A stretch of DNA of 45,662 bases from an uncultured Candidatus Actinomarina sp. (lineage in GTDB: Bacteria; Actinomycetota; Acidimicrobiia; Actinomarinales; Actinomarinaceae). Shown here in pieces: positions 26,361-44,076 of the stretch (the stretch's first letter is position 1; every line of letters starts with the position of its first letter). The notes beneath the pieces are model-generated. The model ran no database searches. It was not told where the DNA came from and was given only the letters and a program-made list of their open reading frames with translations. A program made the translations under genes and the position numbers. The stretch spans positions 1-45,662 of the forward strand of contig CABXDL010000009.1 in assembly GCA_902510995.1 (NCBI GenBank). The letters run 5' to 3'.

Positions 26361-28223
26361 TTATATCTTTGTTGTTAGGAAATGACTCATTGACTGGATG
26401 CTAATCATAGGATTGACCCCAGAACATCTTGGAAAAACTGACGAATCTGTAATATAAACATTTTCTAATCCGTGGACTTTTCCATCAAGATCAACAACCC
26501 CTTCACTCGGGTCAGGATTCATTCTTGCTGTTCCCATTTGGTGTGCAGAGCCAAGTAATATTCTGAATGGTTGATTCTTTATTGAAGTCACTTTGTTGAT
26601 AAATTCTTCAATTGTTTCTTTTGAATCTTGTTTCCAATGAAGCGTTGGTGAAGAAGCCACCATAATTTCAGTGGCACCAGATGAGTGATATGCTTTAACA
26701 AGATTTACTAATCCTTCTACAAGGTGATCGTGATCAAATTTATTGAAATCATATTTCCATAAATGTTGAGGTGATTTATTTACTATGGAACCACTACTTG
26801 TATCTGACGTTAAAACTATTGCTCCAGACCAGTAGTTGTAGTCTTTTACAAAGCTTGCAAAGGAGTCAGTATTATTTGGAAAAAATGGAAAAAATAAACT
26901 TGGATGCATTGGGAGTCCTTCAAGAATATATCCGTAATTATCATTTTTGAACAAAAACTCATCAGAATAAATTCCCTGCATGCTTCCATCCCATGCCTTT
27001 TGCTCTTCACCATATTTTCCAGCAACTCCAGATACAGGATGGAGTTTTAGGTTCTTTCCTAACTGTTTATTTGAATACCCACTATCCATTAATATTTTTG
27101 GCGTATTTAATGCTCCAGCAGACAAAATAACCTTATTTACAGCTATTTTCTTAGTATTTGAACCATTCTCAACCTCTATATGAGTAGCTCTTTTATTGCT
27201 TATAACTAACCTTTTAATGTTCGTATCACTGTATATATTTTTTTGATCAAAAGTATCCTCTGAAAACCATGATGTATATGATGAGTTTCTGCTTTCATAA
27301 CCAGAACCAAACGTAGAAAATCCATCTTCTAAATGATCTAAGTTAGTTAGGTTTCTTGGAATAATTTTATAGCCTATGTCATTTTTCTCTAACCCTTCTA
27401 TGAGCTTTACTTCTTTATGCGGTATCTTGTTATTTTCTTCACTTACATTTAATTTTTTACAAACGTAATCCATACTGTTCTTAAATGCATCTGAATTAAA
27501 GTAATTATCTTGGTTGATTAGAGAATCCCACTCTTTTAAAATATTTTCTGGAGTTTTTAAAGAGGTTGTCCAATTTATAGTTGTTCCTCCACCTACACTT
27601 TTTCCAGCTAATAGAAGAACATTAAATTTTCTCGTTTGTTGCATGCCGTAGCTTTCATAAAAATTGTGATAACCAAACGTTTCGTTATTTGTTTCTTTAT
27701 TTAAGTAACTCCCTTTATCAAATATTCCAACTTCATATTTTTCACTAAGGACGTTAGCAGCCACACCGCCTCCAGCACCGCTCCCAATAACAGCAACTTC
27801 AATGCTTTCAGGAAATTCATTAGTCTTTTTTTCTATATGTCCATTTTTGTAAACAGGGTATTCAAAATGCTTATAGAGATTTCCCTCTCCAGTAAGTGAC
27901 CTTGCGTTACATATTCCAAACAATGTTGAGATAGATGTTCCAAGTTGTCTTAAAAGCATTAATGATGAATTTTGTAAATTATTAACAAATGAAGGAATAT
28001 TTACATCTTTAATCAGGAGCTTTCTAACGCCAAATGAGAAAGTGATGAAGAATAGTTTTAACTGGTTGATTTCACTTTTATCTGGATAATTTTTTAATAT
28101 AAAGAAAAAATATTCTTCAGCATTTTCTCTTTCTGCTTCATCAAAATTTGGATATAAACTTGAGAAAATTATTTTAAAGCTTTTACTAATTCTTGCATCC
28201 ATAGTTTTATGATAGCTAGACAA
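26361..28223 (-). CDS. GMC-type FAD oxidoreductase (long-chain alcohol oxidase-like)
   Basis: 620 aa. A helical N-terminal extension of about 130 residues precedes the FAD-binding VAVIGSGAGGGVAANVL near 143-159. GKSVGGGTTINWTTSLKTP is the GMC signature 1 region. The C-terminus has HQMGTARMNPDP (about 561) and SGVNPMISIQ (Asn604), the catalytic His/Asn pair region. The N-terminal extension and the HxMGTxRM block resemble long-chain fatty alcohol oxidases more than choline or glucose oxidases. The substrate is inferred only as an alcohol. Confidence 0.88.
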   Translation of the reverse strand: MSSYHKTMDARISKSFKIIFSSLYPNFDEAERENAEEYFFFILKNYPDKSEINQLKLFFITFSFGVRKLLIKDVNIPSFVNNLQNSSLMLLRQLGTSISTLFGICNARSLTGEGNLYKHFEYPVYKNGHIEKKTNEFPESIEVAVIGSGAGGGVAANVLSEKYEVGIFDKGSYLNKETNNETFGYHNFYESYGMQQTRKFNVLLLAGKSVGGGTTINWTTSLKTPENILKEWDSLINQDNYFNSDAFKNSMDYVCKKLNVSEENNKIPHKEVKLIEGLEKNDIGYKIIPRNLTNLDHLEDGFSTFGSGYESRNSSYTSWFSEDTFDQKNIYSDTNIKRLVISNKRATHIEVENGSNTKKIAVNKVILSAGALNTPKILMDSGYSNKQLGKNLKLHPVSGVAGKYGEEQKAWDGSMQGIYSDEFLFKNDNYGYILEGLPMHPSLFFPFFPNNTDSFASFVKDYNYWSGAIVLTSDTSSGSIVNKSPQHLWKYDFNKFDHDHLVEGLVNLVKAYHSSGATEIMVASSPTLHWKQDSKETIEEFINKVTSIKNQPFRILLGSAHQMGTARMNPDPSEGVVDLDGKVHGLENVYITDSSVFPRCSGVNPMISIQSMSHFLTTKI

Positions 28224-28274
28224 AAAGAAAAAAGTTCTGTCGCCTAATCCTTCTTTCAGTTTTTATAGAAATTC

Positions 28275-28317
28275 TTGAATAATTAGCCTAAAAACTTGTA
28301 TAGATATTTATATCTAT
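28275..28317 (+). promoter_or_regulatory. Promoter with overlapping inverted repeat before the 50-aa gene
   Basis: TTGAAT (28275-28280), 18 bases, TATAGA (28299-28304). The inverted repeat ATAGATAT (28300-28307), TT, ATATCTAT (28310-28317) covers the -10 and the expected start site, an operator-like placement. AT richness weakens the operator claim. Confidence 0.5.
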
Positions 28318-28367
28318 TATTGTTTATTATTCAACCCAAAATAACCAACCATCCAGGAGGTATTTCT

Positions 28368-28520
28368 ATGCCTATTGGTTTTGTTGAGTCCAAAGAAAAG
28401 GAGGAGGAAAGTTGGATTGATGACTTAATCCGACATATTCTCACTTGTTTAGATCAAGACTGTGAGCGCTGTGCGCATGCAGTTGCAATCGACTTCATTG
28501 GATTCTTAAAAGCTAGTTAA
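28368..28520 (+). CDS. Small Cys-rich protein (50 aa), strongly signposted
   Basis: The ATG at 28368 is preceded by a near-perfect AGGAGG ribosome site (28355-28360), so this start is preferred over upstream in-frame codons. The acidic N-terminal half is followed by a helix and the cluster CLDQDCERCAH: Cys27, Cys32, Cys35, His37, with His23 nearby. This could bind zinc or iron-sulfur. It has its own promoter, leader of about 55 bases and a strong terminator, so it is a well-expressed monocistronic unit at the left edge of the accessory region. I do not recognise the family. Confidence 0.75.
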   Translation: MPIGFVESKEKEEESWIDDLIRHILTCLDQDCERCAHAVAIDFIGFLKAS

Positions 28521-28523
28521 AAG

Positions 28524-28551
28524 AAAAGAGCTCAGTTGCCTGAGCTCTTTT
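28524..28551 (+). terminator. Intrinsic terminator after the 50-aa gene
   Basis: AAAAGAGCTCAG (28524-28535), loop TTGC, CTGAGCTCTTTT (28540-28551): a 12-bp perfect stem ending in a T run. Symmetric A/T flanks could also terminate the opposite strand. Confidence 0.92.
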
Positions 28552-28620
28552 CCCGTTTATAGCTTAATAAATAAGATAAGCATAAGGCAAAAAGTTGAAA
28601 AATGATCTAAAATTAAATGA

Positions 28621-29550
28621 ATGACAAATAAAGAAATTAATAAACTACCTTTAGAGTCTAATTACTCAAAAGATAAAAAAACTCACGTTCTTCATGAGGG
28701 TAATGCAAAAGAACTTTTAAATAATAAAGATCTACACAAAAAGGTGCGTTTAATTGTTACTTCTCCTCCGTACAACATTGGAAAAGAGTATGAAGAAGTT
28801 AAGAAATTAGAAGATTATTTAGAAGACCAGATTGGAATTATTAAAGAGCTCATTAATGTTATGTCAGATGATGGAAGTCTTTGTTGGCAAGTAGGCAACT
28901 ACGTAGACAAGAAAACAGGTCACCTTGTTCCTTTAGACATACCTTTTTATAATATCTTTAGAGAAAATGGATTAATGCTTAGAAATCGAATAATCTGGCA
29001 TTTTAAACACGGTTATCCAAATCAAAAAAAACTTACTAATCAATATGAGACAATCCTCTGGTTCACTAAAGATGAAAACCATTATTTTGATTTAGATGAA
29101 ATTAGAGTGCCTCAGCTTTATCCAGGTTATAGGTTTCCAAAAGGTCATAAAAAAGAAGGTCTGGCAAGTGGCAACCCTAAAGGAAAAAATCCAGGAAATG
29201 TATGGGATGTACCACAGGTCAAAGCGAAACACCTTGAAAAAACTGATCATCCAGCACAGTTTCCTATTTCAATAATTAGACGACTAATTACAGCTCTTAC
29301 AGAAGAGGGTGATTATGTATTAGACCCTTATGTTGGCTCAGGTACAACCATTGCTGCAGCAGCTCTAGAGAATAGGATTGGGATAGGAGCTGAAATTGAT
29401 AAAGAATATTGTGAGATAGTGAAAAATAGAATTAAAGATTTAAATGAAGGAAAAATGGACTACAGGGAAGATAAAGAAGTTCCAAAACCAAAAGGAAAAG
29501 TTTCGGAAACACCTTTAGAATGGGAACAAGAAGGAGTATTAAATGACTGA
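28621..29550 (+). CDS. Site-specific DNA methyltransferase (beta class, N4-C or N6-A)
   Basis: 309 aa. Catalytic motif IV TSPPYNIGK lies at about 47-55, and the AdoMet-binding motif DPYVGSGTT at about 235-243 follows a DHPAQFPISIIRRLI block. Motif IV before motif I is the beta-class order, and SPPY leans to N4-cytosine but does not exclude N6-adenine. The target-recognition stretch lies between. TAAAAT (28608-28613) ends 7 bases before the ATG, suggesting a leaderless operon start. It overlaps the next gene by 8 bases. It likely supplies self-marking for a defence operon with the next three genes. Confidence 0.9.
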   Translation: MTNKEINKLPLESNYSKDKKTHVLHEGNAKELLNNKDLHKKVRLIVTSPPYNIGKEYEEVKKLEDYLEDQIGIIKELINVMSDDGSLCWQVGNYVDKKTGHLVPLDIPFYNIFRENGLMLRNRIIWHFKHGYPNQKKLTNQYETILWFTKDENHYFDLDEIRVPQLYPGYRFPKGHKKEGLASGNPKGKNPGNVWDVPQVKAKHLEKTDHPAQFPISIIRRLITALTEEGDYVLDPYVGSGTTIAAAALENRIGIGAEIDKEYCEIVKNRIKDLNEGKMDYREDKEVPKPKGKVSETPLEWEQEGVLND

Positions 29551-30850
29551 AGAATTTGAATTTTCACAAGATTTCGTAAAACCACAAGCTCACAGAAGAC
29601 AGCTCCTTAGGACTTTAGTTGCTGATAGTGTCACAACATCTAGACAAATTGTCCCAGGAGGTGGGATTGAACAGTTGGCATTAATAACTCTTCCCATTAC
29701 ACATATTATTTACAATGCAGACAATGTTCGAATAAGAGATAAGGTTTTAACAGAGTTTGAAATAGAAAATACAGACACAGAAAAGTTTGATCAACATTTT
29801 TATTCAAAAAGAGAAAACTTTGAAACTCAAAAATTTATCCACTCTGTTCTTTCAGAGCTTGCACATGCAACAGATGCTGATATTTATACAAGATTAAAGC
29901 AAACACAAGTACAAAGAGACCCGATCCTTATAGATACAGATGGAGTTATAGTAGATGGAAATAGAAGAATGTCTTCAATAAGGGAGTTGTATACAGAAAA
30001 CCCTGCTGACTTTCCCGAATTCAATGAAATTGAGTGTGTTGTAATTCCTAGAGCTGACAGACAAAATAATAAAGAATTCGAGCATCAAATTCATTTTGCT
30101 GATACTTTGCAACTCGAATATACCTGGTTAAATAAAGCCCTCGAAGCTCAGAGACTTGAAGCAGAAAGAAAAGATAGAGATGAGATAAGAAGACAATTAC
30201 AGTTATCTAGCCTTACAGCTGTTGATAAATTATTAATCACTGCAAAAGGAATGCAACGTTATAACAAAGTAAAAGCAGGTTTCGACCCTGAACATATAAA
30301 TAATAATTATGTAGATCTTGGCCAATACGGTAATGAACAAAGTTTCATTGAGATTGGAAAAGTAATGGACAGAGATATTCCGGCTTCAGATAAAAAACAA
30401 CAAACCTTATTACAATCAGTAATCCATTTTGTCGTGCAAAATGACAGGAAAGCTATAGGCGGAAGAGCTTTTAATATGAATCAAGCAAATAGGGCTCACA
30501 AACTTTTTGATTGGTATAAAAGAGCGATAGGTGTAGAGAATACTTCAAGAGCTAATCAAAAATTAAGAGATTTTGGTACGTCTGTAGTTTTTGATGACTT
30601 GAGAGGCACTATACAAGAAATGAATCGAAAAAGATTACAAGATGAAAGACAACAAACAGAAGATGAACAGCAATCTCAAACGAAGAGTAAAATAGAAGAT
30701 GCATTGGATGCGTTGGAAACTATTAATGTTAACTCCGGCACTACAAGAAAGACACATTTAAGAAATATTAAAAGAAATTTAGACAAGATTGATAAAGAAA
30801 CAAAACGAGTTAGAGAAGATATAGGCAGCCAAGAAGAAAATCTAAGTTAA
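29543..30850 (+). CDS. ParB/sulfiredoxin-fold DGNRR protein of the defence operon
   Basis: 435 aa. Residues about 125-150 read QRDPILIDTDGVIVDGNRRM, with the DGNRR motif at 138-142, diagnostic of the ParB-N/sulfiredoxin-like fold seen in DNA-modification and conflict systems (compare DGQHR and DUF262 proteins). A long helical region with charged segments (EAERKDRDEIRRQLQ) and a C-terminal coiled-coil-like tail follow. It is not a chromosome-partition ParB: there is no helix-turn-helix/parS domain layout and no parA. The role could be nucleotide-dependent DNA recognition or nicking. It overlaps the methyltransferase by 8 bases and precedes the helicase by 3 bases. Confidence 0.75.
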   Translation: MTEEFEFSQDFVKPQAHRRQLLRTLVADSVTTSRQIVPGGGIEQLALITLPITHIIYNADNVRIRDKVLTEFEIENTDTEKFDQHFYSKRENFETQKFIHSVLSELAHATDADIYTRLKQTQVQRDPILIDTDGVIVDGNRRMSSIRELYTENPADFPEFNEIECVVIPRADRQNNKEFEHQIHFADTLQLEYTWLNKALEAQRLEAERKDRDEIRRQLQLSSLTAVDKLLITAKGMQRYNKVKAGFDPEHINNNYVDLGQYGNEQSFIEIGKVMDRDIPASDKKQQTLLQSVIHFVVQNDRKAIGGRAFNMNQANRAHKLFDWYKRAIGVENTSRANQKLRDFGTSVVFDDLRGTIQEMNRKRLQDERQQTEDEQQSQTKSKIEDALDALETINVNSGTTRKTHLRNIKRNLDKIDKETKRVREDIGSQEENLS

Positions 30851-30853
30851 CAA

Positions 30854-32755
30854 ATGTCTTCAATTAATGCTTCTTTAAGCGGTAATTTTAAAGGGGTAGA
30901 TTTTTCAACATCAAATAATGAAGATGAATTTTGGGTAAAACTAATAGATTATTATAACGATTGTGGGATAAGCCCTTATCTTGGTGATCATGTCAAGGAA
31001 CTCTCTATCTCTTGGAAAGATTTTCTATTTTACTTCTACGATGGATTAGAAGATGAAGGTATAGATGTGATATATCACTCTAATATCTCACCACATATTG
31101 AAACTCATAGAAAAAATCTTGAATTTACAAGTAAACTCCCTCGTAAATTAAATACTAAAGATATTCAAGAATATGAATCAATTACTGAAAATTTAGAGAA
31201 TATAGGTATAAAAAAAAGAAAGCTTTTTCAATATCAACTCAGAGATCTTGCATTCATGCTACAAAGTCCTAATTCAGCAAATTTTTCTGTTCCTGGTGCT
31301 GGAAAAACTTTTGTTGCATTGTGTGTAAATGCATACTTAAAAAAAGAAATCTTAATTGTTTTTGTACCAAATGATGTAGTTATGCAGTCCTGGGAGCATG
31401 AAATAAATAACACATTTGATACTGAACATAAACCAAACACATATAGGTTAAATGGAAATCTTGAAGAGGTAGAAATGTTATTAGAAAAAATTTCTGAAGG
31501 AGGTATTGGACTAATTACCTATAGAAAAATACTTTCACGAGGTTTTGAAAAATTATTTAGAGACTTTTTTATGAATAATCCCTCGCATCTTATTCTTGAT
31601 GAATCTCATAGAATAAAAGGAGGAATAAAATCAACAGGATTACCCTCAAAAATAGCTTCAAAAATATTATCTTTTTCAATGTTTATAGATAGAAAAGATA
31701 TTTTGTCTGGTACTCCAATGCCCTTAAACCATAATGACTTAATTTCCCAAGTAGAATTTCTTTATCCTAACTCTGGACTAAAAGAAAAAATTGAGACAGA
31801 AGCACAGAGCCCAGGAGCACCTATCCAAGGGATTTTTGTTAGAACAACAAAAAGCGAACTTGAACTACCAGAACCTGTGGAGAATTCTATAACACAAGAA
31901 ATGTCAGAACTTCAAGCTGCTTTTTACGAACTTGTTGTGAATAGATATAGAGAAGAGTTTTCTGTCCCATCAAATAGAGACTTATTAAACATTAAAATTG
32001 CAACAAGAGCCCAATTGGCGCTATCAAGAGTTGCAAGGCTTTCAGTAGATCCTTATTTTTTGGTTGAAGACCTAAAAGAAAAAAAAGATGAAATTGCAAA
32101 ATACATACACTCAAGCAGAAACGAAACAATTATCAACAACCTAATAAATGAAGGTGAAGCTGAAAACAAAGTTTCCAAAAAAATGAATAAAGCTATTGAA
32201 ATTACTAAAAAAATACTTGAAGAAGAAAAAAAGGTTATTATTTGGTCACAATTTAGTAATTCTATAAAAGTACTTGAAGAAGAGCTAAGAGAACATACTC
32301 CTGTAACTTTATATGGTGAAACTGAAAATCCAGAAAGTTCAGTTGAATTATTTAATGATAAAAACAGCGGTGTTGATGTTTTAATTGGTAACCCTAAAAA
32401 GGGTGGAGAAGGAATTAGTTTACATCACAACTGTCATAATGCTATTTATTTAGATAGAACATACAATGCTGCAGAGTATTTACAATCACGTGACAGAATT
32501 CACAGAATAGGCATGCCGGCAGATGTAGTCCCAAATTATTACATAATACATTCTGTACATCCAAATAAGTCAAAAAAAGTAATTGATTTGAGGATTAGCA
32601 ATAATCTTCAAAGAAAAATTGAAAACATGGAAAAACTTCTTAATGATCCAGACTTGAAAAGATTATCGCTTGATGAAGCTGCAGGAGACGAACAGGAATC
32701 AGAATATAGCTTGGATGATTTAGATGACTTTATAGGAATGCTAATAAATGAATAA
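30854..32755 (+). CDS. SNF2-type superfamily 2 helicase/translocase
   Basis: 633 aa. After a unique N-terminal region of about 120 aa, RecA domain 1 has FQYQLRDLAFML, Walker A VPGAGKT (about 146-152), Walker B LILDESH (DESH at 249-252) and motif III LSGTPMP. RecA domain 2 has VIIWSQF, GGEGISLHHN and the SNF2 motif VI QSRDRIHRIG. SNF2 proteins translocate on double-stranded DNA without full strand separation. The acidic C-terminal tail overlaps the next gene by 8 bases. It is the motor of the putative restriction system. Confidence 0.9.
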   Translation: MSSINASLSGNFKGVDFSTSNNEDEFWVKLIDYYNDCGISPYLGDHVKELSISWKDFLFYFYDGLEDEGIDVIYHSNISPHIETHRKNLEFTSKLPRKLNTKDIQEYESITENLENIGIKKRKLFQYQLRDLAFMLQSPNSANFSVPGAGKTFVALCVNAYLKKEILIVFVPNDVVMQSWEHEINNTFDTEHKPNTYRLNGNLEEVEMLLEKISEGGIGLITYRKILSRGFEKLFRDFFMNNPSHLILDESHRIKGGIKSTGLPSKIASKILSFSMFIDRKDILSGTPMPLNHNDLISQVEFLYPNSGLKEKIETEAQSPGAPIQGIFVRTTKSELELPEPVENSITQEMSELQAAFYELVVNRYREEFSVPSNRDLLNIKIATRAQLALSRVARLSVDPYFLVEDLKEKKDEIAKYIHSSRNETIINNLINEGEAENKVSKKMNKAIEITKKILEEEKKVIIWSQFSNSIKVLEEELREHTPVTLYGETENPESSVELFNDKNSGVDVLIGNPKKGGEGISLHHNCHNAIYLDRTYNAAEYLQSRDRIHRIGMPADVVPNYYIIHSVHPNKSKKVIDLRISNNLQRKIENMEKLLNDPDLKRLSLDEAAGDEQESEYSLDDLDDFIGMLINE

Positions 32756-33611
32756 CGATTTTACTGTAGGGATAATTGAGGCTGGGATTAATCTCATTGA
32801 AGAGTTAGAAATTGATTCTGATAGAACTGTTAAAGATATAATTCGAGTTAAAGAAGAAACAAATACTTTGACTGAAGATTATAAAAATGCTGAGAGCTTA
32901 ATTTTAGATTATGGAGAGACACTCTTTAAGGATGATGGTAAATTTCAAAAATTAGAAAAAAGTATATTATTTAATATGATTTCTATTCTCAGCCCTCCAT
33001 GGAAGAGCTCTTTGAGACATGGTAGGGAGCTTTTCTTTTCATACATTAAGGAACTTGAAGAAGGGGGCAACATTTATCAAGTTTTTCTTCATGCAGGCCT
33101 TAATGACTCTTCAGAAGAAACTATTTCATGGTGGAAATTGATTGCAAATTTATCTAACACAGCCAGTGAAGACAGAAGAGAGATGCTTGGCTTAGAAGGT
33201 GAAATTTTAACAATAAAATATGAAAAAGATAAGCTAGACGATTTGAATATAGATCAAAAATTATACAAAATTGATCATGTTGCGTCTTACGACAATAGTG
33301 CTGGGTTCGATGTTTTATCTTGGAGAAAAAATTCTAATGATGAAGTTTATGAAATACAGATAGAAAGCAAAATGTCAGCAAGAGAGGTTTCTGATTTTCA
33401 TCTTACACGAAATGAATTTGATAAATCATTATCAAATCAAGATACATATTGCGTATATCTTTGGAAGAAAGAAAATATTTATGGAGATACTCCATTAAAA
33501 TATGATGCAAAATGGTTAGAAAAAAATACACCAAAGGACCAAGGAACGTCCTATTGGAGTGAGGTTACAATTACTCCAAATGATGATGGAATTCCAAATT
33601 GGCAAGAGTAA
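32748..33611 (+). CDS. DUF3883 (PD-(D/E)XK-like) protein
   Basis: 287 aa. The C-terminal half matches DUF3883: LEGEILTIKYEKDKL, then SAGFDVLSW (Asp188), YEIQIESKMS (Glu206, Lys208), then FHLTRNEFDKSL and DTYCVYLW. The GxDxxS...IExK arrangement is the PD-(D/E)XK nuclease-like core seen in this family, usually attached to or beside helicases. The N-terminal 150 residues are helical and not recognised. It is the last gene of the MTase-ParB-SNF2 operon and the best candidate for its nuclease, though the ESK variant makes activity uncertain. Confidence 0.72.
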   Translation: MNNDFTVGIIEAGINLIEELEIDSDRTVKDIIRVKEETNTLTEDYKNAESLILDYGETLFKDDGKFQKLEKSILFNMISILSPPWKSSLRHGRELFFSYIKELEEGGNIYQVFLHAGLNDSSEETISWWKLIANLSNTASEDRREMLGLEGEILTIKYEKDKLDDLNIDQKLYKIDHVASYDNSAGFDVLSWRKNSNDEVYEIQIESKMSAREVSDFHLTRNEFDKSLSNQDTYCVYLWKKENIYGDTPLKYDAKWLEKNTPKDQGTSYWSEVTITPNDDGIPNWQE

Positions 33612-33772: not shown

Positions 33773-33790
33773 TCGCTAGTAAATAGTGTG
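33773..33790 (+). repeat. Repeat copy 1 (TCGCTAGTAA element) before the vWA gene
   Basis: TCGCTAGTAAATAGTGTG ends inside the GTG start of the vWA gene. A second copy, 15 of 18 bases identical, lies at 35721-35738 before the tubulin-like gene. The shared 10-mer TCGCTAGTAA is followed in both by ..AGTGT. Could be a shared regulatory element or a duplication scar. Confidence 0.45.
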
Positions 33791-35704
33791 ATTAAAAATA
33801 TAACAAGCATAATTTTAATATTTACTCTACTTACTTTACTAGTAGGTACTCCTTCATATGCTAATGAAGCATCTAGTGGAAATGCAGCAGATGTTGTTAT
33901 ATTGGTTGACTTTTCTGGTTCAATAACAGATGACCCACGGTACCCACTTGCTGAAAAAAAAGCATTAGAAAATTTAGTTAATGTTTCTTGGCCTCATGGA
34001 TCTAAAGTTGCAATACTTGCTTTTGGAGCTTCAGATATAAGGAATGGAGGTAAACCAGCTACATTCCCAATGTGTGGGGGCGACGAAGAAGTATTAAAAA
34101 GTACTACAAATATAGAGGAGTGGATTTCTAATTGTGTTGCAGTTATTGGAACAAAACCTGTTGGACCAATGACTGATCATAATAAGGCAATAAAAAAAGC
34201 TGTTGATATTCTAAGCGGTCCATTATCTACTAATTCATCAAAATTTGTACTTCTTATGACAGATGGAAAACTAGACGTAGATAATTTTAATCCTGTTAAT
34301 CCAGACTATATAGGGAGTAGTGAAGAAAAAGATCAACAAGCAATTGATGAACTATTTTTAGAGGTATTACCTGATGCTCGTAAAAAAGGTATACAAATTT
34401 GGCCAGTGGGTTTTGGTGATGTAAACAGAATTGAGCTTAATGGATATGCTCCTGAAGGTGGGCAACCTGGACCTAATTCTTGCCAGAGAGAAATACCCAG
34501 AGCTGTTATTGCTGAACCCGAGGACTTGCCTTACGAGATAAATAAAATTATTAGACAAGTCACATGTCTAGGAGAATATGTTCAAGGTAAGAATCCAGAA
34601 ATACTACTACCTGACTATGCAGATGAAGCAACAGTAAAGATTAAACATCAAGAAGGAGAGACCTTTACACTTCTCGGACCGAATGGCGAAAAAGAAAATG
34701 GTGGAGGGGAAGGCACTGTGTCTACGATTACTATTCCTGATCCATCTGGAGGTACTTGGCAAATAGTTTCAGACACACCTGTTGAAGTAGGCTATTGGTG
34801 GAAAAGCACTTTTGAACCTATAATTACATGTCCTGAGGAAAACAATGTAGTCACATTATCAGTTATTCCATCAAATAATTCATCTGATTCTTATGTAAAC
34901 AGTCCAGTCTTTATTGTTGAGGTCATTGTTGATGGCGAGAAACAATTCCATGAAATTGAGTTAGGTGAAGAAGCAACTTTTATGTTTCAAGAAGAAGTGG
35001 TTGATATAGTTGCTGAAGCCTCTTATGAGTCTTTAGATCAACCAGCAATTATTTCATTTAATAAAGCAGAAGAAAAATGTTCAAATAAGCTGCTTATTAA
35101 TTCTTCAGAAAAGGATATAAACAATGAAAACGATATTGCGGAAACACCTTCAATTGATACACGAATAAATTGTGAGCTAACACCCGAAAATGAAAAATGT
35201 AAAGACCCAATTCCATGGTGGTTATTAATTTTGATAGGGCTAACCATACTTACTTTAGTTTGGTACTTATGGAATAAACGATATTTGAGAGAAGGCACTT
35301 TTGTAATAAGTAATAACCTTGGTGAGCAAGGAAGAGTAAGGGTGCTTAAGAAAACAACAAGCTTAGCTTTTAATATAAATAAAGAAGAACAGTTTGGATC
35401 TCAAATTACTAAAACTAGTGCTGAAATATACGGCTCATATGAGATTACAAAAGGTAAAAAAGGTCCAGACTTTATAGTTTCAGGTCCAGTTGGAAGCGGC
35501 AAAGAAAAAAACAGAGCCTTTATTGTTGGAGACAAGCTAGAACTTGAAGAAGGATATATTCTTGACTTCGAAGATGGTTTCTCTCGTAAACCAATAATTG
35601 TTGATGAAAATCCATTTGAAGATGATGGAATAAACGATATTTTTTCAAATCCAAGTACTGAAGAGATAGATGATGAAAATTCAGAGGAGAATCCATTTGC
35701 TTAA
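33788..35704 (+). CDS. Membrane-anchored von Willebrand factor A (vWA) protein
   Basis: 638 aa from GTG. A signal peptide (about 1-25) and an extracytoplasmic vWA domain start at VVILVDFSGSITDDP, with the MIDAS DxSGS at 41-45 and the later LLMTDGKLD motif. A beta-rich middle, a membrane helix at about 475-495 (WWLLILIGLTILTLVWYLW) and a cytoplasmic beta-rich C-terminal domain with an acidic tail follow. vWA domains bind protein partners through Mg2+. It heads a four-gene operon with the tubulin-like GTPase. The only stated role is inference: a surface sensor or scaffold that signals inside. Confidence 0.85.
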   Translation: MIKNITSIILIFTLLTLLVGTPSYANEASSGNAADVVILVDFSGSITDDPRYPLAEKKALENLVNVSWPHGSKVAILAFGASDIRNGGKPATFPMCGGDEEVLKSTTNIEEWISNCVAVIGTKPVGPMTDHNKAIKKAVDILSGPLSTNSSKFVLLMTDGKLDVDNFNPVNPDYIGSSEEKDQQAIDELFLEVLPDARKKGIQIWPVGFGDVNRIELNGYAPEGGQPGPNSCQREIPRAVIAEPEDLPYEINKIIRQVTCLGEYVQGKNPEILLPDYADEATVKIKHQEGETFTLLGPNGEKENGGGEGTVSTITIPDPSGGTWQIVSDTPVEVGYWWKSTFEPIITCPEENNVVTLSVIPSNNSSDSYVNSPVFIVEVIVDGEKQFHEIELGEEATFMFQEEVVDIVAEASYESLDQPAIISFNKAEEKCSNKLLINSSEKDINNENDIAETPSIDTRINCELTPENEKCKDPIPWWLLILIGLTILTLVWYLWNKRYLREGTFVISNNLGEQGRVRVLKKTTSLAFNINKEEQFGSQITKTSAEIYGSYEITKGKKGPDFIVSGPVGSGKEKNRAFIVGDKLELEEGYILDFEDGFSRKPIIVDENPFEDDGINDIFSNPSTEEIDDENSEENPFA

Positions 35705-35720
35705 TATTTTAAAAAACTCG

Positions 35721-35738
35721 TCGCTAGTAATAAGTGTT
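35721..35738 (+). repeat. Repeat copy 2 (TCGCTAGTAA element) before the tubulin-like gene
   Basis: TCGCTAGTAATAAGTGTT, partner of the copy at 33773-33790. It is followed by a six-codon ORF, MKKGKN (35739-35759), whose stop abuts the ATG at 35760 and whose codons supply the GAAAGGA ribosome site of the tubulin-like gene. Confidence 0.45.
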
Positions 35739-35759
35739 ATGAAGAAAGGAAAAAATTAA

Positions 35760-38700
35760 ATGGGAGTAACTCATAAAATGCTTTATGTAGGAATCGGTGG
35801 TACCGGCGTACATATTGGGAAAGAACTTGAAGTTGCTTTAAGGCGAGACTTGTGTGGACCTGATGGAAAAGCTTTAATTAGAAAAGGCGGAGCATTTCGA
35901 AAACTTGAACCTTATCAATTACCAGATTATATACAATCTTTATATTTTGATTTTGATGATGATGCTGAACAAATTCTACAAAAAGGCACGGATCTAAGTA
36001 CTAATCTTATAGAAAAAAATGCAACAGTAGTAAAAAGTATTCATGCTACAGGCGCTACAAGCTATAGGGTAGGTGCTGAAATGCTAAGAGCAGATAAGAA
36101 TACTTCTTCTATGACCAAAGGATGGCTGCCTGAAAAAGAAAATGAACCACAGGTTGCACCATTATCAGACGGTGCTGGTCAATACCCAACTGTAGGGAGA
36201 GCAGCTTTAGTTTTATCATTAAATCGCTCGGGTCATGAACTTGAAGGTGAAATAGATCAAGCAATAAAAAGACTTGTCTTAGGTGAGGGTATGTTACAAA
36301 CCGCAAAAGAACAAGGAGCTAAGCCGAAGATACTTTGTTATGTTGGATTTTCTGTTGCCGGAGGTACTGGAACGGGTATATTTTATGATGTATTACATTT
36401 ACTCGAAAAGAGATTAAGCAGTATCCTTGATGGATTTGAAGTTGCTATATTTCCATTAGTATTGATGCCTTCAGCATTTATTGAAAAGTGGAAGCCAAAT
36501 AATATAAAAGCCGGAAAAGCAAATGCTGCAATTGCATTAAAAGATCTTGCCCAACTAGTTGAACATTTACAAAAAGATGACCAACCGGACGATTTTAAAA
36601 TAAATTACCCGGAGCCATTTGGAATAACAAGAATGAATCCAGCAACTATTCCTTCAGCATTTTTATTTAGTAAAGCCTCATCAGTGACCCAGGAAGATAT
36701 GTATAAATCTATGGCGTCATTTGTAATGTCACAGGTCACTACTGGGGAGGAAAAGAAAGATGATAAAGACAATAAAAATTTAGATAGTAATAATACCCAG
36801 ATGTCCGTATTCTCTAAAATAATCAATGACAGAAATTTAACTGGAGAAAAAGATAAATACGGTCCAGGTTTAAGACCTTTTTCTACAGCAATTTCAGGTT
36901 CATTATCAATTCCTATTGAAAATGTTGCTGATCTTATTTCTCGAAAGCTTATAGCTGAGTATATTGAAGAAAATAATGACAATTCATTAATTCAATCTGA
37001 AAACAATTCAATTGATATGGCAGAGACCTTAAAGAACATGGAAGTTAATTTTATTGTAGATCCAGTGCCTACAAAAAATCAACAATTGATTGACGAGGAA
37101 GAAAATATAGTTGCTAGTAGGGGGAAAGATCTTGCAAAAAATATCTCTTATTATAAAACACAACTACAACGTTGGATTAATGGATTTGATAGTTATGCAA
37201 GGAAGTCAATCTCTCAATCTTCTATGGACTGGAAACAACAAGTCATTACACTCCTAGGTTCAAATTCATTGTTTAAAACAATGAGAATTTTCCAGGGGTC
37301 AAATCTTGCACAAGACTCTAACTCAAAAGAAGGTGTTATTGGAAAATTATTAAATTTTGCATCAAAAATTAATAAAAGTGCACAAGCACCAGAACCTCCA
37401 AAAGTTAAAGGACCAAATGTATTTCAAAAAGGCTCCCACCCAAGAATTAAAACAGAATACCTCAAACAATCATTACCAAAATGGTATAAAAGTGAGTTTG
37501 AAATTAAGTGGCAGGATGCCTGGATTGTTCAAAGATCAAAATGGCAAAGCGTCGTTGATGAAATTAAAGATACTTTTGCAATCATAAATACTGGATTAGA
37601 AACATTTAAAAAATCCACAGAAGATGCTTGGTCTGTAAATAAAAGTAAATCTATTAAAGATGGTATTTTAGTATCAGGATTTCTTCCTTTAGATAGTGGA
37701 AATTTAGAAACATTAAAAAACGATCTAGTAAAAAGCCTGACCTCTACCTCTACATCTCAATCTACACCTTCTGCTTCTGACTTATTTATGAACATTTTAC
37801 CTAAAGACATATGGCAAGAAGCTTGGAAAGTGTTTGATAAAAAATCAAAAGAAAATATAAATGAAGCAACTCAGGAGTTAATTAACTATATAAAGATAGA
37901 ATTAAAAAATAAAATTGTTGAGGAACTTCAAAAATCAACAACTGATGGTAGCTCCCTTCTTCCTAGTCTTAAAAATTTATTATTAAGAGCATCCAGAACT
38001 GGGACAACTTCACCTTCTAATCAAGTTAAAGTTCTACACTCAGAACTTAGCAAAATGATTCCCTTTGATACTATTCCTGACTCAGGACCAGGTAAACCTA
38101 CTACAGAAATATGGATCAATTACCCACTAGAAGAACAAGATACCCAAGTTGAGGAATATTTAAAAAATCAAATCACTGCAGGTTGGCCTAATCAGCATGA
38201 AATTCTGGATAAGATTATTTGTTATCCGGTTGGTGGAGAGTCTATCTTTATTTCAATTTACAATTATGCTAATGGCTTATTTAGCTTAAAAGAACCAAGA
38301 AAATTATTTAAAGAATTATTTGATTCAAAAAATACTCCTGAAGGAAGAGAGCTCCAGTGGAGGCAAAGACTCTCAACTGAAACAATTTATAACCTTGCTG
38401 CAAAACGAGACTATGTTAATGCACTTCAATATTTTTTAGTTGCAGCTTGGAACGACTGTGTAGTACTAAATGACGCATCCAGTATAAGGGATGCAAAGTC
38501 ACTTACAATACTGTTACCTAACGATGGAAAGATTGATCTTGAATTAAAAAGATTTCAAAAATTTAGTACTGTATCTGATCTTCCAGAAGCTTTTAAGAAT
38601 TTCTGGATAAACATGAGTATGGACGATTCTTCTAATTGGGACCAACTACTTAGCATGATGCCAAATGGAGCTAAAGATGGAGATTTGTACGAGAACTTGC

Positions 38701-38933
38701 CTAAAACAAATATATTTTATGAAATAGTTTCAATGATTGGTGATAATGAAATCCAAGAATTAAAATCTATTTTGAATGAAAATGATTCTTCTCCTGGTGT
38801 TCTCTCTAAAGCAAAATTAAAACTAGAATTTTGGACAACACTTCTTCCTCAAGCATTAAATCAAACAATAGGTGCAGGAATATACACAAAACTCAACTAT
38901 TTAGTTGAAGAATTAAAAAAAGAGAAAGTTTAA
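35760..38933 (+). CDS. Large tubulin/FtsZ-like GTPase protein (Tubulin_2 type)
   Basis: 1057 aa. The N-terminus MLYVGIGGTGVHIGKELE (GIGGTG at 11-16) matches the first nucleotide loop of tubulin/FtsZ proteins. VGFSVAGGTGTGIFYDVLHLL (AGGTGTG at 200-206) is the tubulin signature GGTGSG. This is the long bacterial Tubulin_2 group, far larger than FtsZ (about 400 aa); the remaining 700 residues are mainly helical with FLFSKAS, WQRRL and other unrecognised blocks. It likely binds GTP and may polymerise. GAAAGGA ribosome site. It is flanked by the vWA gene and a two-TM partner 1 base downstream. Confidence 0.82.
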   Translation: MGVTHKMLYVGIGGTGVHIGKELEVALRRDLCGPDGKALIRKGGAFRKLEPYQLPDYIQSLYFDFDDDAEQILQKGTDLSTNLIEKNATVVKSIHATGATSYRVGAEMLRADKNTSSMTKGWLPEKENEPQVAPLSDGAGQYPTVGRAALVLSLNRSGHELEGEIDQAIKRLVLGEGMLQTAKEQGAKPKILCYVGFSVAGGTGTGIFYDVLHLLEKRLSSILDGFEVAIFPLVLMPSAFIEKWKPNNIKAGKANAAIALKDLAQLVEHLQKDDQPDDFKINYPEPFGITRMNPATIPSAFLFSKASSVTQEDMYKSMASFVMSQVTTGEEKKDDKDNKNLDSNNTQMSVFSKIINDRNLTGEKDKYGPGLRPFSTAISGSLSIPIENVADLISRKLIAEYIEENNDNSLIQSENNSIDMAETLKNMEVNFIVDPVPTKNQQLIDEEENIVASRGKDLAKNISYYKTQLQRWINGFDSYARKSISQSSMDWKQQVITLLGSNSLFKTMRIFQGSNLAQDSNSKEGVIGKLLNFASKINKSAQAPEPPKVKGPNVFQKGSHPRIKTEYLKQSLPKWYKSEFEIKWQDAWIVQRSKWQSVVDEIKDTFAIINTGLETFKKSTEDAWSVNKSKSIKDGILVSGFLPLDSGNLETLKNDLVKSLTSTSTSQSTPSASDLFMNILPKDIWQEAWKVFDKKSKENINEATQELINYIKIELKNKIVEELQKSTTDGSSLLPSLKNLLLRASRTGTTSPSNQVKVLHSELSKMIPFDTIPDSGPGKPTTEIWINYPLEEQDTQVEEYLKNQITAGWPNQHEILDKIICYPVGGESIFISIYNYANGLFSLKEPRKLFKELFDSKNTPEGRELQWRQRLSTETIYNLAAKRDYVNALQYFLVAAWNDCVVLNDASSIRDAKSLTILLPNDGKIDLELKRFQKFSTVSDLPEAFKNFWINMSMDDSSNWDQLLSMMPNGAKDGDLYENLPKTNIFYEIVSMIGDNEIQELKSILNENDSSPGVLSKAKLKLEFWTTLLPQALNQTIGAGIYTKLNYLVEELKKEKV

Positions 38934-38934
38934 A

Positions 38935-41385
38935 GTGGTTGATACAAAACTTATATCAAAAAGAGGCGAAACTGTTGAAGTTTTGGACTTTAGAAAAGAT
39001 AGTATAAGAAATTTATTTTCTGAATATTTACCCGATCAAGCATTACAGTTATTAAAAAAAGATAGGTCTGAAGATAACTTTCTAGGTTTAAGCAGGCCAT
39101 TTAAGCTAATAACAATTCCCCATCAAGACGATGTTGAGTTTTTGATTAAAGGAAGTAATGCAAATAAAAGCAGATGGGATATATGGGAGAAGCTTTTAGC
39201 TGAATCAAATTTAAATCTAGAAATAATTGTTTTGTTTATTGGAGAACTTCCTGAATATAAGATTTCTAGGAATAAGCTATATCTTCCTGAGTTCTTAACA
39301 GAAAAAAGAATTCGGCTTGTCTGGTCTTCATCCTTAAATGGTATATTCTGGAGCCCATCTTATCAAAATTATCCCTCAGCCTTATTACATTGGGATTCAG
39401 AAAATCTTCATGAAGCAAATTTCCAAGCACTCCTAAAACCACTAACCGTTCCGGAAATTTTTGAAGATATATTTGAAAAATCAAAGCAAGGTGAAATATA
39501 TAATCCAGGACTAAGACAAACTGCCTTTGGAAGTGGTTATATAAAAGAAAGTAAAGACATACTTTATGAAGCTGCAAAACATATAACAGGTTCAGGTAAT
39601 TTGTTGACATCACAATCTACAACGATGCCTCACTTATCAATAAGTGACTTATATAAGGGCAAAATAAACCCTGTTCTTCCTGGATATAAGGATGGGATCT
39701 TTTCAGAGATTGACAGAACAGGAAAGATGTCTTTAGATATGTGTAGATTGTTTGGTGCTACAAATAGCATTGTCTCAAAAGATCAGATACCATCATTTTC
39801 TAAAAGACTTGAAAAAACATATAAAGAATATATTGATACCATATTAAGTTTTGTAAAATCCCTTAGAAAAACAAAAGATGATTTATCTAGTTTAATAACC
39901 TCTATTGATGCAAAAGATGGATTTGATGAGAAAGAGTATGTAAAAATTATAGATAATAATATTGATTTTTATTCAACAAAGCCGGAAATTCCTACACATG
40001 AGAGACCAATTAGAGTATCTACAGCTATATTCTTAGATATCTTAAATGGAATTAAATTAGGTCACAATATTAAAGAATATAAAATTCTATTGAAGAAATT
40101 AATTCGCGAGGTGAAGCCTTGTAGCAATAATGTTTCAAAAAGAAATTTAGAAAAAATATGGAAACCTTTGGCTTCTAAAGGCGGTTTATTAGATCCTGAA
40201 AAAGATGAAAATAATTTAAAAAAAGAAGTAAAAAAAATGTTTGGTAATAAACTTTTTAGCTTTGTATTTAATTTCCCATGGACAGTTCTGGATAAAAAGA
40301 AAATATTTTTAACTATTATGACTACTGTAACTGCTCTGCTGGCTTCTTTCTGGGCCATTACTACTTTTATTGCTGGAGAACCCGGAGATGAGCCAATATT
40401 TGGTTCATCAGGCTCAGTGTGGCTAGATAATTTTGTAACAGGTTTATTTAGAAACACTAATTGGGAAGATGTACTAATTGTATTATTTTTAAGTGCTCTA
40501 ACACTATGGTTAGGACTTTATATAATTGCTAAATTTGTAATTAATAATATTGAAAGAGTTGGTAAAAAATTAAAAATAGAAATTATTCCAGAAATTATTA
40601 GAGATGCGAAAGTATTTTTATGGAAGACTCTTATCAATGACTGGGTTTTAGCAAGTGACAGATATGAAATTGTAGAATATTTAAATTCAATTATAGATAT
40701 CCTAGATAACGTTCAAGAGTTGCTAATTGAAAATTATCTAAACATTGAAGACAGCGATGATTTGATATTTCAAAAAAGACATCTCGAACCAAATCCTATC
40801 TTAGAAACTAACCTTAATTCTGTATCAGAAAATGGTATTTACAAAGACTTTGAAGGATCAGTAAAAATTTTAAAATCTGACCTTCTCTCTCTTCTTGAGC
40901 TTTCATTTGATCAAGAATGGATGAAAATTAGAGGAGCAATAGGTAGAAACTTGGTTCCAAAAAGAATTGTTGAGAATTTTAAAAAGAATTTAATTGAATT
41001 TGAAAAAAGAACATATAGTAGTTCAATATTAGATCCAAAAACTGCTCATACTTCTGAAGGGCAGGAGCAACGAGATCAGATTATAAAAAATCTTTGGTCT
41101 GAAGGAGACTACCCAAGAGAAAAGGTTTTAGATTTAATGGAGCTAGATGATAATTCTGAATTAGTTCATTTTTTAAATTCAGAAGAAATCTCTCTACTTA
41201 ATGGAAGGTCTGAAGCAATTATAAATTTAAAATTTGCTCCATTAGTTTTAGATTTACCAGTATATAAAGACTTTATACGAACTAAAGAGAGTAAAGTTGC
41301 TGGAGTATTAAGACTAGTTCCATTGTCTATTCAAATTGAATACTTAAGAGCCTTAGAAGTAAGTCCTCTAGAGAAAGTTATATAA
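38935..41385 (+). CDS. Large two-TM protein partner of the tubulin-like GTPase
   Basis: 816 aa from GTG, one base after the tubulin-like stop. The soluble N-terminal half (about 1-450) is followed by two membrane helices at about 456-475 (FLTIMTTVTALLASFWAITTF) and 512-535 (VLIVLFLSALTLWLGLYIIA), then a helical cytoplasmic C-terminal region of about 280 aa. The short loop between the helices (GEPGDEPIFGSSG) would face outside. No known family recognised. The position suggests it tethers the tubulin-like filament or the nuclease to the membrane next to the vWA protein. Confidence 0.85.
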   Translation: MVDTKLISKRGETVEVLDFRKDSIRNLFSEYLPDQALQLLKKDRSEDNFLGLSRPFKLITIPHQDDVEFLIKGSNANKSRWDIWEKLLAESNLNLEIIVLFIGELPEYKISRNKLYLPEFLTEKRIRLVWSSSLNGIFWSPSYQNYPSALLHWDSENLHEANFQALLKPLTVPEIFEDIFEKSKQGEIYNPGLRQTAFGSGYIKESKDILYEAAKHITGSGNLLTSQSTTMPHLSISDLYKGKINPVLPGYKDGIFSEIDRTGKMSLDMCRLFGATNSIVSKDQIPSFSKRLEKTYKEYIDTILSFVKSLRKTKDDLSSLITSIDAKDGFDEKEYVKIIDNNIDFYSTKPEIPTHERPIRVSTAIFLDILNGIKLGHNIKEYKILLKKLIREVKPCSNNVSKRNLEKIWKPLASKGGLLDPEKDENNLKKEVKKMFGNKLFSFVFNFPWTVLDKKKIFLTIMTTVTALLASFWAITTFIAGEPGDEPIFGSSGSVWLDNFVTGLFRNTNWEDVLIVLFLSALTLWLGLYIIAKFVINNIERVGKKLKIEIIPEIIRDAKVFLWKTLINDWVLASDRYEIVEYLNSIIDILDNVQELLIENYLNIEDSDDLIFQKRHLEPNPILETNLNSVSENGIYKDFEGSVKILKSDLLSLLELSFDQEWMKIRGAIGRNLVPKRIVENFKKNLIEFEKRTYSSSILDPKTAHTSEGQEQRDQIIKNLWSEGDYPREKVLDLMELDDNSELVHFLNSEEISLLNGRSEAIINLKFAPLVLDLPVYKDFIRTKESKVAGVLRLVPLSIQIEYLRALEVSPLEKVI

Positions 41386-41388
41386 GAA

Positions 41389-41958
41389 ATGGATACTATA
41401 AAATTTGAACCATTAATAAAGGAAATATACAAATTATCTAAAAAAGTATCAAAAGATCTTCCCTTTCATGCAACAGGTATAGAGAAACAACTACAAGAAG
41501 CTCTTGCATATGAATTTCGTAAATCTAAAAAACCTATTGAAGCTGGAAGAGAGTATTTTGGTGAAATTTATTATAAAGATTTTCCAATAAAAGATTACAG
41601 ACCTGATTTTATTATTTTTCCTGATCCTAAGTGGAAACTTGATACAACTTTAACTATTGAAACAAAGTTTGGTTCTCTTAGAGAACTGGCTTCTGGGCGC
41701 GAGGAGTTATTTAGATACTTATACTCTGCACAACAAAGTTCTGTAAAAGAAATACGAAATTCAAAAATAGGAATTCTTATATGGTGGGAGTCAATAGGTA
41801 CGGACACTCCTGCTGGAGGCTCTCAGGCAGATAGAGAAACTCTTTTAGATATAGAAACAGCAGAATACACTCCGGCAGCATTTCAAGTAGTAGTTGAGGT
41901 TTGGACTATAGAAGATGCTAAACGAAAGAAATTTAAGAAAATTATTTCTTTAGCCTAA
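41389..41958 (+). CDS. PD-(D/E)XK-like nuclease
   Basis: 189 aa. An N-terminal helix GIEKQLQEALAYEF (Glu at 32) is followed by RPDFIIFPD (Asp73) and LTIETKFGS (Glu91, Lys93): the classical PD-(D/E)XK order with ETK. The C-terminal region has strands and helices (KIGILIWWESIG, AFQVVVEVWTIED). It likely cleaves or binds nucleic acid in the cytoplasm, the only evident effector within the vWA-tubulin operon. It starts 3 bases after the two-TM gene. Confidence 0.7.
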   Translation: MDTIKFEPLIKEIYKLSKKVSKDLPFHATGIEKQLQEALAYEFRKSKKPIEAGREYFGEIYYKDFPIKDYRPDFIIFPDPKWKLDTTLTIETKFGSLRELASGREELFRYLYSAQQSSVKEIRNSKIGILIWWESIGTDTPAGGSQADRETLLDIETAEYTPAAFQVVVEVWTIEDAKRKKFKKIISLA

Positions 41959-42022: not shown

Positions 42023-42183
42023 AAATATCCTGGAATAAAAATTACTAAACCTCCAAGCATTAAGCTAAAGCCATTAAAGTTAAATCCCCAAATAAAGAAT
42101 CCATGTAAACAGTTAATGTAAAACCATAAAAAAATTACTATTTTATCAAAGGTTGTTTGCGGCTTAAACCTAATTTTCTTCAT
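41983..42183 (-). CDS. Small two-TM membrane protein (66 aa)
   Basis: 66 aa with two hydrophobic helices: VIFLWFYINCLHGFFIWGF and FSLMLGGLVIFIPGYLIYFL. It has a basic N-terminus (MKKIRFKPQTT) and a basic C-terminus. The start lies 14 bases inside the end of the DUF805 gene, so translation is probably coupled. Its last 12 codons sit within a long hairpin. No family assigned. Confidence 0.65.
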   Translation of the reverse strand: MKKIRFKPQTTFDKIVIFLWFYINCLHGFFIWGFNFNGFSLMLGGLVIFIPGYLIYFLSKHFFGKK

Positions 42184-42553
42184 CGTCTGATGTAGATTGG
42201 TTTACTATAGTATGTGGTCTTGGGCTTCCCCATTCATTATCAGATTGTTCACTTGGTTTTATTGATAAAAAGAAATTATAAAAAGGGATAATTAAATACC
42301 ACCCACTTTTACCTATATCGTGCATTCTTCTAATTCCTGAAGTAATTACAGCAATATATGACCAAACCAGTAAAATAGCATCTATTACCTCAGCTGTTTG
42401 AAATGAAAATAAAAAATAAGACCCAAAAGTGACAAAAAAGTAAAGTGGTAATGCAATTACTTCACATCCCCAATATTCTTTACGAGAGGCTCTTCCGGAA
42501 ATAGTAAAAATTTCCTCTATGTAAACTTTTTTAAAAGCTTCTAAAAATGTCAT
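42170..42553 (-). CDS. DUF805 family inner-membrane protein
   Basis: 127 aa. Family hallmarks are IFTISGRASRKEYWG near the N-terminus and SGIRRMHDIGKSGWYLIIPF near residue 80, with three to four membrane helices and a short polar tail, shorter than the usual GxxxxNxYG ending (here NEWGSP). DUF805 proteins are small membrane proteins of unknown role, sometimes near phage or stress genes. A CTCC-complement (GGAG) ribosome site precedes the ATG. Operon with the 66-aa gene. Confidence 0.85.
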   Translation of the reverse strand: MTFLEAFKKVYIEEIFTISGRASRKEYWGCEVIALPLYFFVTFGSYFLFSFQTAEVIDAILLVWSYIAVITSGIRRMHDIGKSGWYLIIPFYNFFLSIKPSEQSDNEWGSPRPHTIVNQSTSDDEEN

Positions 42554-42635: not shown

Positions 42636-43985
42636 TTAGTCATCACTTTCTTCAAAAACTAAGTCACACAATTCTCCAGCATCAGTAGTGAAAATTTCAT
42701 AAAGAGTCAACGAATTTTCGTATTTAATGATCATCTCATCGTATAATAAACTCAAGTTTTTTTCATCTTCTTGATTGAATGCGATAAAATTTTCTATAAT
42801 TTCATTAATTTCTTCTTCACTATCTGCTTCTTGACCTTCTTCAAAAACTTTCTCAACTTTAGTAATAAATTCATCGTATCTAGTAATAAGCGCTATTGCA
42901 TCATCAATAGCTGAAAGTTCCATTGTTATTAGTTCTTCTATTTGAGCTTTTAACTCTATGTGTTCCTCATCAATATCTGGAATACCTGTAGCTTTTATCG
43001 TATTACTTAACTTCACTAATTCATCTATATCATTTTTAAACCTGTATAAATTTAGCTCCGCATGCAATTCTTTTTGTTCTTTGGAGGTTAAGTTAAAATA
43101 GTATTCAAAATTATTATATTCATACAAAAAGTTATCATAAGTTTCATATGCTTCATCAAATTGGTCATTATATTTTACATCAATATCCCAAAAAGAATTA
43201 TAGTAATTCAAAATTACATCACATGAATCATCAATTGGATCTGTAATTTTGTCTAAGATTGTTGGTATTGAAGTAGCTGGAGCTTCTGAAGTTGAATCAA
43301 GAGTTGTTTCAGGCTGCCTGTCCAGAATAGAAGGAAGAATAAAAATATAAAAGAATCCAATTATTAATAAAATTCCAGCGTTTCTTCTAATAAGTTTTTT
43401 ACTCTTTTCTGGGTCTTTACTTTTTCCCCAGATCCAGTTCAGATATTTCTCTTCCGGATCCGGAGGAGGTGTCTCCGGCCCTTCTTCAATATTTTGATTA
43501 TCTTCATTAACTTCTTTTTGGAAATATTCATTTATTTCTTTAGCAAATTTTTTAATTATCAATTCTCTTAAACCAGGCTTTAACTCTCTGAGTCCTTGAT
43601 CCTCGTTATTTGGAGACTGATATTCTAAAATCTCTTTATTGATTTTATATTTGTTATCTAAATCTGTATCTACAAATATAGGAATTATAAGAAAATCAGA
43701 GTTTTCCTTTTTCCTCTTAAGAATTTCTGGTATTTCATTATTATTTATGAAATCACTATTAATAAAATTATTTGAAATAAAGAGTACCGCACCTGAGGAT
43801 CTTTGGATGTATTCTTGTAGTTTTTCTTTAGATTTATCACCAAGATTTAATACGTTTCGAGATTTATCAATTATTAGATTTATTTTATTTTTATAGTTCT
43901 TAGCTTCTTCTTCAAAGTCATATAAAAAACTTGTAACAATATCGTAATCTTCTCGCGCGTAACATATAAAGAGATCTTTATCCAT
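42636..43985 (-). CDS. Membrane-anchored TIR-domain protein
   Basis: 449 aa from the ATG at 43985 (an open frame continues 10 codons to a TTG). The TIR domain starts at once, MDKDLFICYAREDYDIVTSF, followed by SGAVLFISNNFINSDFINNNE, where Glu about 84 fits the catalytic Glu of NAD-cleaving TIRs, and then FLIIPIFVDT. A Pro/Glu linker, one membrane helix at about 202-221 (AGILLIIGFFYIFILPSIL) and a C-terminal acidic helical region of over 200 aa follow. TACTAT at -12 to -7 suggests a leaderless start. It is divergent from the TerB-like pair. Probable NADase-type effector or signalling protein; activity is inference. Confidence 0.82.
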   Translation of the reverse strand: MDKDLFICYAREDYDIVTSFLYDFEEEAKNYKNKINLIIDKSRNVLNLGDKSKEKLQEYIQRSSGAVLFISNNFINSDFINNNEIPEILKRKKENSDFLIIPIFVDTDLDNKYKINKEILEYQSPNNEDQGLRELKPGLRELIIKKFAKEINEYFQKEVNEDNQNIEEGPETPPPDPEEKYLNWIWGKSKDPEKSKKLIRRNAGILLIIGFFYIFILPSILDRQPETTLDSTSEAPATSIPTILDKITDPIDDSCDVILNYYNSFWDIDVKYNDQFDEAYETYDNFLYEYNNFEYYFNLTSKEQKELHAELNLYRFKNDIDELVKLSNTIKATGIPDIDEEHIELKAQIEELITMELSAIDDAIALITRYDEFITKVEKVFEEGQEADSEEEINEIIENFIAFNQEDEKNLSLLYDEMIIKYENSLTLYEIFTTDAGELCDLVFEESDD

Positions 43986-44076
43986 GATTTGATAGTAATA
44001 AGATTTTTTATTCAATAAAATTATTTATCAAAAAAAACTGATGTGAATTTTGCGAATTTACTTTAAACTAATATTT

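Follow-up and report, generated by a model that had tools for sequence, protein, structure and literature searches.

The ATP-dependent restriction-modification (R-M) systems CglI, NgoAVII and BceSIV pair a nuclease that does the recognising with an ATPase on another subunit, the two acting together, and the report on CglI also counts homologues in which a PLD nuclease is fused to the ATPase (PMC4267653). SWI2/SNF2 helicases occur in mobile R-M neighbourhoods together with MORC proteins, C5 methyltransferases and Vsr (PMC2292703), and DUF3883 has been described as a novel REase domain that is fused to an SNF2 helicase in R-M operons (PMC3710099). DISARM, BREX and Zorya likewise combine a methyltransferase and/or an SNF2 motor with a nuclease. 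This plan recurs in a four-gene operon within a 45,662-nucleotide stretch of an uncultured Candidatus Actinomarina sp. genome (contig CABXDL010000009.1; the window), which we regard with reasonable confidence as an ATP-dependent R-M system, predicted to act in defence, with a core of a ParB-type protein (P), an SNF2 protein (S) and a NOV_C protein (N) linked to a methyltransferase (M). The reading draws on gene content and order, conserved catalytic residues, methyltransferase linkage and location in a defence hotspot.

An earlier note on this DNA had described four touching or overlapping genes with SPPY and GSGTT methyltransferase motifs, a DGNRR ParB-like protein, an SNF2 motif set and a DUF3883 PD-(D/E)XK-like C-terminus, and each of these elements was recovered, the open reading frames spanning 28621-33611 (Table 1). 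All four frames are complete, intact and on the same strand, with overlaps of 8 nt between M and P and between S and N, and a gap of 3 nt between P and S. The operon thus joins a co-encoded methyltransferase to an SF2 motor and a nuclease with intact active-site residues, as expected of ATP-dependent R-M in the broad sense.

Table 1 Positions of the operon and of neighbouring features in the window.
Feature	Position	Strand	Remarks
GMC oxidoreductase gene, conserved	26361-28223	-	
Left boundary of variable island	28224..28620	+	core synteny stops just past GMC oxidoreductase gene
M, beta-class N6/N4 DNA methyltransferase	28621..29550	+	PF01555, 1e-56
P, ParB-family	29543..30850	+	[D/N]GNRR box, HTH region, long C-terminal helices
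S, SNF2-type SF2 ATPase	30854..32755	+	predicted dsDNA motor
N, NOV_C/DUF3883 PD-(D/E)XK nuclease (predicted)	32748..33611	+	helical N-terminal domain, C-terminal nuclease domain
Downstream vWA/Tubulin_2 operon	33788-41958	+	
DUF805 protein	42170-42553	-	between tubulin-like operon and TIR gene
TIR-domain protein, same island	42636-44015	-	PF13676, 1.2e-8

The operon resembles CglI, NgoAVII and BceSIV in having a methyltransferase, a separate nuclease (here predicted) and a separate SF2 ATPase, and the ATP-dependent cutting of those systems, with recognition and motor in different subunits, is proposed likewise for the window system. CglI has a PLD-B3 nuclease, a DEAD-Z1 ATPase and no ParB protein, whereas the window family has an SNF2 protein, a NOV_C PD-(D/E)XK protein, a ParB protein and, in most relatives, a BglII-like protein (R); no PLD or Z1 domain match was obtained for the window genes. 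CglI/NgoAVII is the closest worked-out analogue of the proposed mechanism, and the operon does not belong to the CglI/NgoAVII class. The SNF2-MORC-C5-Vsr operons (PMC2292703) may overlap in part with the branches of our family that have protein X and C5 plus Vsr, but no ParB or DUF term was found in the text describing them, and the methyltransferase of the window and of its M-R-P-S-N relatives is of the N6/N4 type. DUF3883 as reported in R-M operons is fused and accompanied by HEPN-AAA proteins (PMC3710099), whereas here N stands alone beside P, S and a methyltransferase.

By marker genes the operon is not BREX, DISARM or Dnd/Ssp, as the earlier note had held. Nine island proteins were scanned, and the models listed for them include no DrmA, DrmB or DrmC of DISARM (S weakly matches DrmD), no PglZ, BrxC or PglX of BREX, and no ZorA or ZorB of Zorya, for which the ZorD match covers the S helicase core only. 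The four genes gave no HsdS (PF01420), N6_Mtase (PF02384) or HSDR_N match indicative of type I R-M. Scans with PADLOC, NCBIfam and PHROGs returned no system-level match, and the four- or five-gene family was not found described in the open-access papers searched. The view that the system is little described is upheld, and the M-P-S-N/M-R-P-S-N family, widespread as it is, appears to be undescribed as a unit.

M carries the motifs TSPPY and DPYVGSGT, is about 50% identical to M of the M-R-P-S-N relatives and is classed by PADLOC models as a type II methyltransferase. Among solved structures, those nearest to it in sequence are M.RsrI and further adenine methyltransferases, which makes N6-adenine the more probable product.

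P of the window contains the DGNRR box. No Pfam family matches it above that family's cut-off, and no PADLOC model covers it; a profile built from 35 P proteins matches Spo0J (E=0.0038) over a stretch that takes in the ParB boxes as well as the HTH region. The 31 best PDB fold matches of its AlphaFold model (pLDDT 80.8) are all ParB, Noc, KorB or PadC entries, with E-values that are all above 0.001 and therefore weak, yet consistent in kind; KorB gave the best superposition (TM 0.60 by target length). With its ParB boxes and its ParB-N plus HTH fold, P belongs to the ParB family and looks like an NTP-dependent DNA clamp or switch of the ParB/KorB type. In ParB proteins the box is normally GERR, and CTP is bound and hydrolysed. 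The glutamate of GERR is replaced by asparagine in the P family (GNRR), so nucleotide hydrolysis by P may differ from that of known ParB proteins, from which the putative CTP chemistry of P is carried over by analogy.

The SNF2 motor motifs of S are PGAGKT, DESH and QSRDRIHRIG; its relatives keep them save at isolated residues, among them the Ser in DESH and the Arg in QSR. The window protein is only about 33% identical to its relatives and sits on a long branch of the S tree; PADLOC models reach it over the helicase core, as weak ZorD and DrmD matches.

N matches NOV_C (1.3e-7). Seven residues are invariant in 31 N proteins from relatives (E152, G186, D188, E206, K208, P262 and W270), and E152, D188, E206 and K208 form the predicted PD-(D/E)XK active site. 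The folds closest to the N model (pLDDT 91.5) are the PD-(D/E)XK nucleases of SPARDA and Hjc, again with weak E-values (above 0.001) that are consistent in kind. The earlier note had given recognition and cleavage to the ParB-like and DUF3883 proteins together, a proposal that calls for revision: N is the likely nuclease of the operon, but recognition falls more probably to R in most relatives. The PADLOC models PDC-S36, which denotes a candidate system, and PD-T4-1 share the nuclease domain of N, matching it in 29 and 20 of the 31 relatives, respectively, and cover only the C-terminal domain of window N. No paper naming PDC-S36 was found in the open-access literature.

When relatives were picked by SNF2 similarity alone, the genome collection yielded 498, of which the best 80 were examined. 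P was present in 79/80 and N in 74/80, which bears on the conserved co-occurrence that the earlier note had proposed to check. The 58 loci with full flanks among these 80 contained P in 58/58, N in 54/58 and a DNA methyltransferase in 58/58, in keeping with a methylation-linked multi-gene system as first suggested; the methyltransferase was M in 33, C5 only in 20 and a two-domain enzyme in five. As a baseline, one of 64 viral helicase loci lacking P had a DNA methyltransferase, these loci being mostly phage and not random bacterial DNA. For the reverse test, genomes drawn evenly from four phyla were searched with P as the starting point. Of 396 genomes from the window's phylum, 5 further ones had P; in three other phyla the further genomes with P numbered 3 of 398, 7 of 296 and 6 of 299, or about 1-2% of the sampled genomes. 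S adjoined P in 18 of the 22 P loci fetched, two of which were already in the SNF2-picked set and at least one miss among which lay at a contig edge; 10 of the 13 P loci with full flanks had one of the three methyltransferase types and 3/13 had none of these types. Scanning genome contigs with P as the only query gave no relatives, whereas the SNF2-based scan did find them. The P and S genes touch, nearly touch or overlap in 85/89 cases and the S and N genes in 83/83. With the same gene order shared by tens of distant genomes, the arrangement is far beyond chance. The window operon, with P, S and N adjacent and a methyltransferase beside them, belongs to this P-S-N core family.

The commonest form of the family has five genes in the order M-R-P-S-N, as in Paracoccus denitrificans (L003 6140-11956), and its fifth gene, R, present in most relatives and absent from the window, could not have been seen from the window sequence alone. 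R is about 154 aa long and BglII/BamHI/BstYI-like. At the position of the BamHI/BstYI catalytic Glu, the 42 distinct sequences have Q (33), C (6) or H (3) and in no case Glu, and R is on this account predicted to be unable to cut; it is probably a nuclease-dead recognition subunit. Loss of cutting stays a prediction because the upstream Asp at the BamHI spacing is kept in many R sequences. R was not found in the six frames of the window, nor in the available 0.98 Mb of the genome when searched with a single R protein and no positive control; since the genome is about 75% complete, R could lie in the unsequenced part. The window thus does not have the R between M and P that marks the M-R-P-S-N branch. 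Its R-less form is not a one-off, because L254, an independent locus from another phylum, likewise lacks R and reads M-P-S-N, its M and P genes overlapping. The S and M trees group the window version with the M-linked systems on very long branches, which leaves its exact place unsure. Being very divergent and without R, the window version could be partly decayed, yet its four frames are intact.

These observations bear on the alternative that M, with R in relatives, is an ordinary type II-like R-M pair and that P-S-N is accessory, processing broken DNA or preventing self-damage rather than acting as the restriction effector. M and R do resemble a BglII-class type II pair, and P-S-N is also found beside C5 plus Vsr, a two-domain methyltransferase or protein X; however, without a catalytic Glu in any R sequence an M-R pair would have no nuclease, and both the window and L254 lack R and keep M, P, S and N. 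We consider this explanation unlikely.

Further forms of the family are P-S-N followed by M, P-S-N with a two-domain methyltransferase and P-S-N with C5 plus Vsr. The X branch, with protein X and a C5 methyltransferase and usually Vsr, has one origin on the S tree, and X is fixed in this C5-linked branch. Protein X (for example L068 5492-6340) has about 280 aa with many invariant Cys, His and Trp residues and the motifs QKGCPDG and CGTxxRPCPK, and has no relative in Pfam or the PDB. Relatives on Bacillota plasmids have P and an SNF2 protein near C5 methyltransferases; in two of the SNF2 proteins (L010, L012) the N-terminal region looks PLD-like, by a motif judged by eye, a feature shared with the PLD-ATPase fusions counted among the CglI homologues. 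On a SAR11 (Pelagibacteraceae) contig (L086 5502-11177), P-S-N is accompanied by M in antisense orientation and, upstream, by a PDDEXK_1 nuclease, which is unusual for so streamlined a genome.

Under the R-M reading, M would methylate host sites, probably at N6-adenine, and so mark self. On incoming unmarked DNA, a recognition event would enable P to bind nucleotide and to act as a clamp or switch on the DNA, S would hydrolyse ATP and move along it, and N would cut after this S-driven movement. The recognition subunit in most relatives would be R, the BglII/BamHI-like protein without its catalytic glutamate; with R absent from the window, recognition there would have to be taken on by M, by P or by the helical portion of N. 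More tentatively, as one possibility that we would not yet favour over all others combined, the ParB-type nucleotide-gated clamp may be the licensing switch between recognition and the SNF2-driven nuclease, with the dead BglII-like enzyme serving as specificity subunit in most members and dispensed with in the window and L254. If true, an R-M family in roughly 1-2% of sampled genomes from four phyla is not picked up as a whole by the tested PADLOC models, a ParB nucleotide-clamp mechanism familiar from chromosome segregation is tied to DNA restriction, and R is a clear example of a restriction enzyme converted to a recognition role.

P might instead sense foreign modified DNA, making the system modification-dependent (type IV-like), in the manner proposed for DUF262 in GmrSD and SspE. 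NTPase sensing has been discussed for these DUF262 proteins of the ParB/Srx superfamily (PMC10952713), and P falls in the same broad superfamily. We judge this improbable: the methyltransferase co-encoded at all 58 full-flank loci of the SNF2-picked set fits host marking, and P is arranged as in ParB and KorB, HTH region included, and not as in DUF262.

At about 1 Mb the host genome is small, and the sample of its phylum includes members of 8.9 Mb; the GC content of the window is about 33%. Synteny with nine congeners holds for the genes at 18.5-28.2 kb, and from 28.2 kb to the contig end there is no match in those nine; P is absent from 41/41 congeners. The site from 28224 is hypervariable, congeners (L208-L217) having type I R-M, a C5 methyltransferase, TIR or no such insert. 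No integrase, sought as a sign of a mobile element, was found in the genome. The island site is a genus-specific defence hotspot, a location that lends independent support to a defence role for the R-M system proposed here. DNA segregation is the usual role of ParB proteins, and orphan methyltransferases act in gene regulation, but an operon for epigenetic regulation or DNA segregation is very hard to credit for this locus, given that ParA is missing from it, the nuclease is intact, the distribution is accessory and patchy both in the genus and across the four phyla, and the site is a defence hotspot.

Further along the island, the downstream operon encodes a vWA protein that has a membrane segment, a Tubulin_2 (PF13809) protein of 1057 aa, a protein of 816 aa that matches no family, and a weak PDDEXK_3/GxxExxY protein. 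We rejected the vWA/Tubulin_2 genes as part of the system, as they occur in none of the relatives with neighbours listed and are separated from N by a 176-nt gap; the downstream operon is possibly another conflict system.
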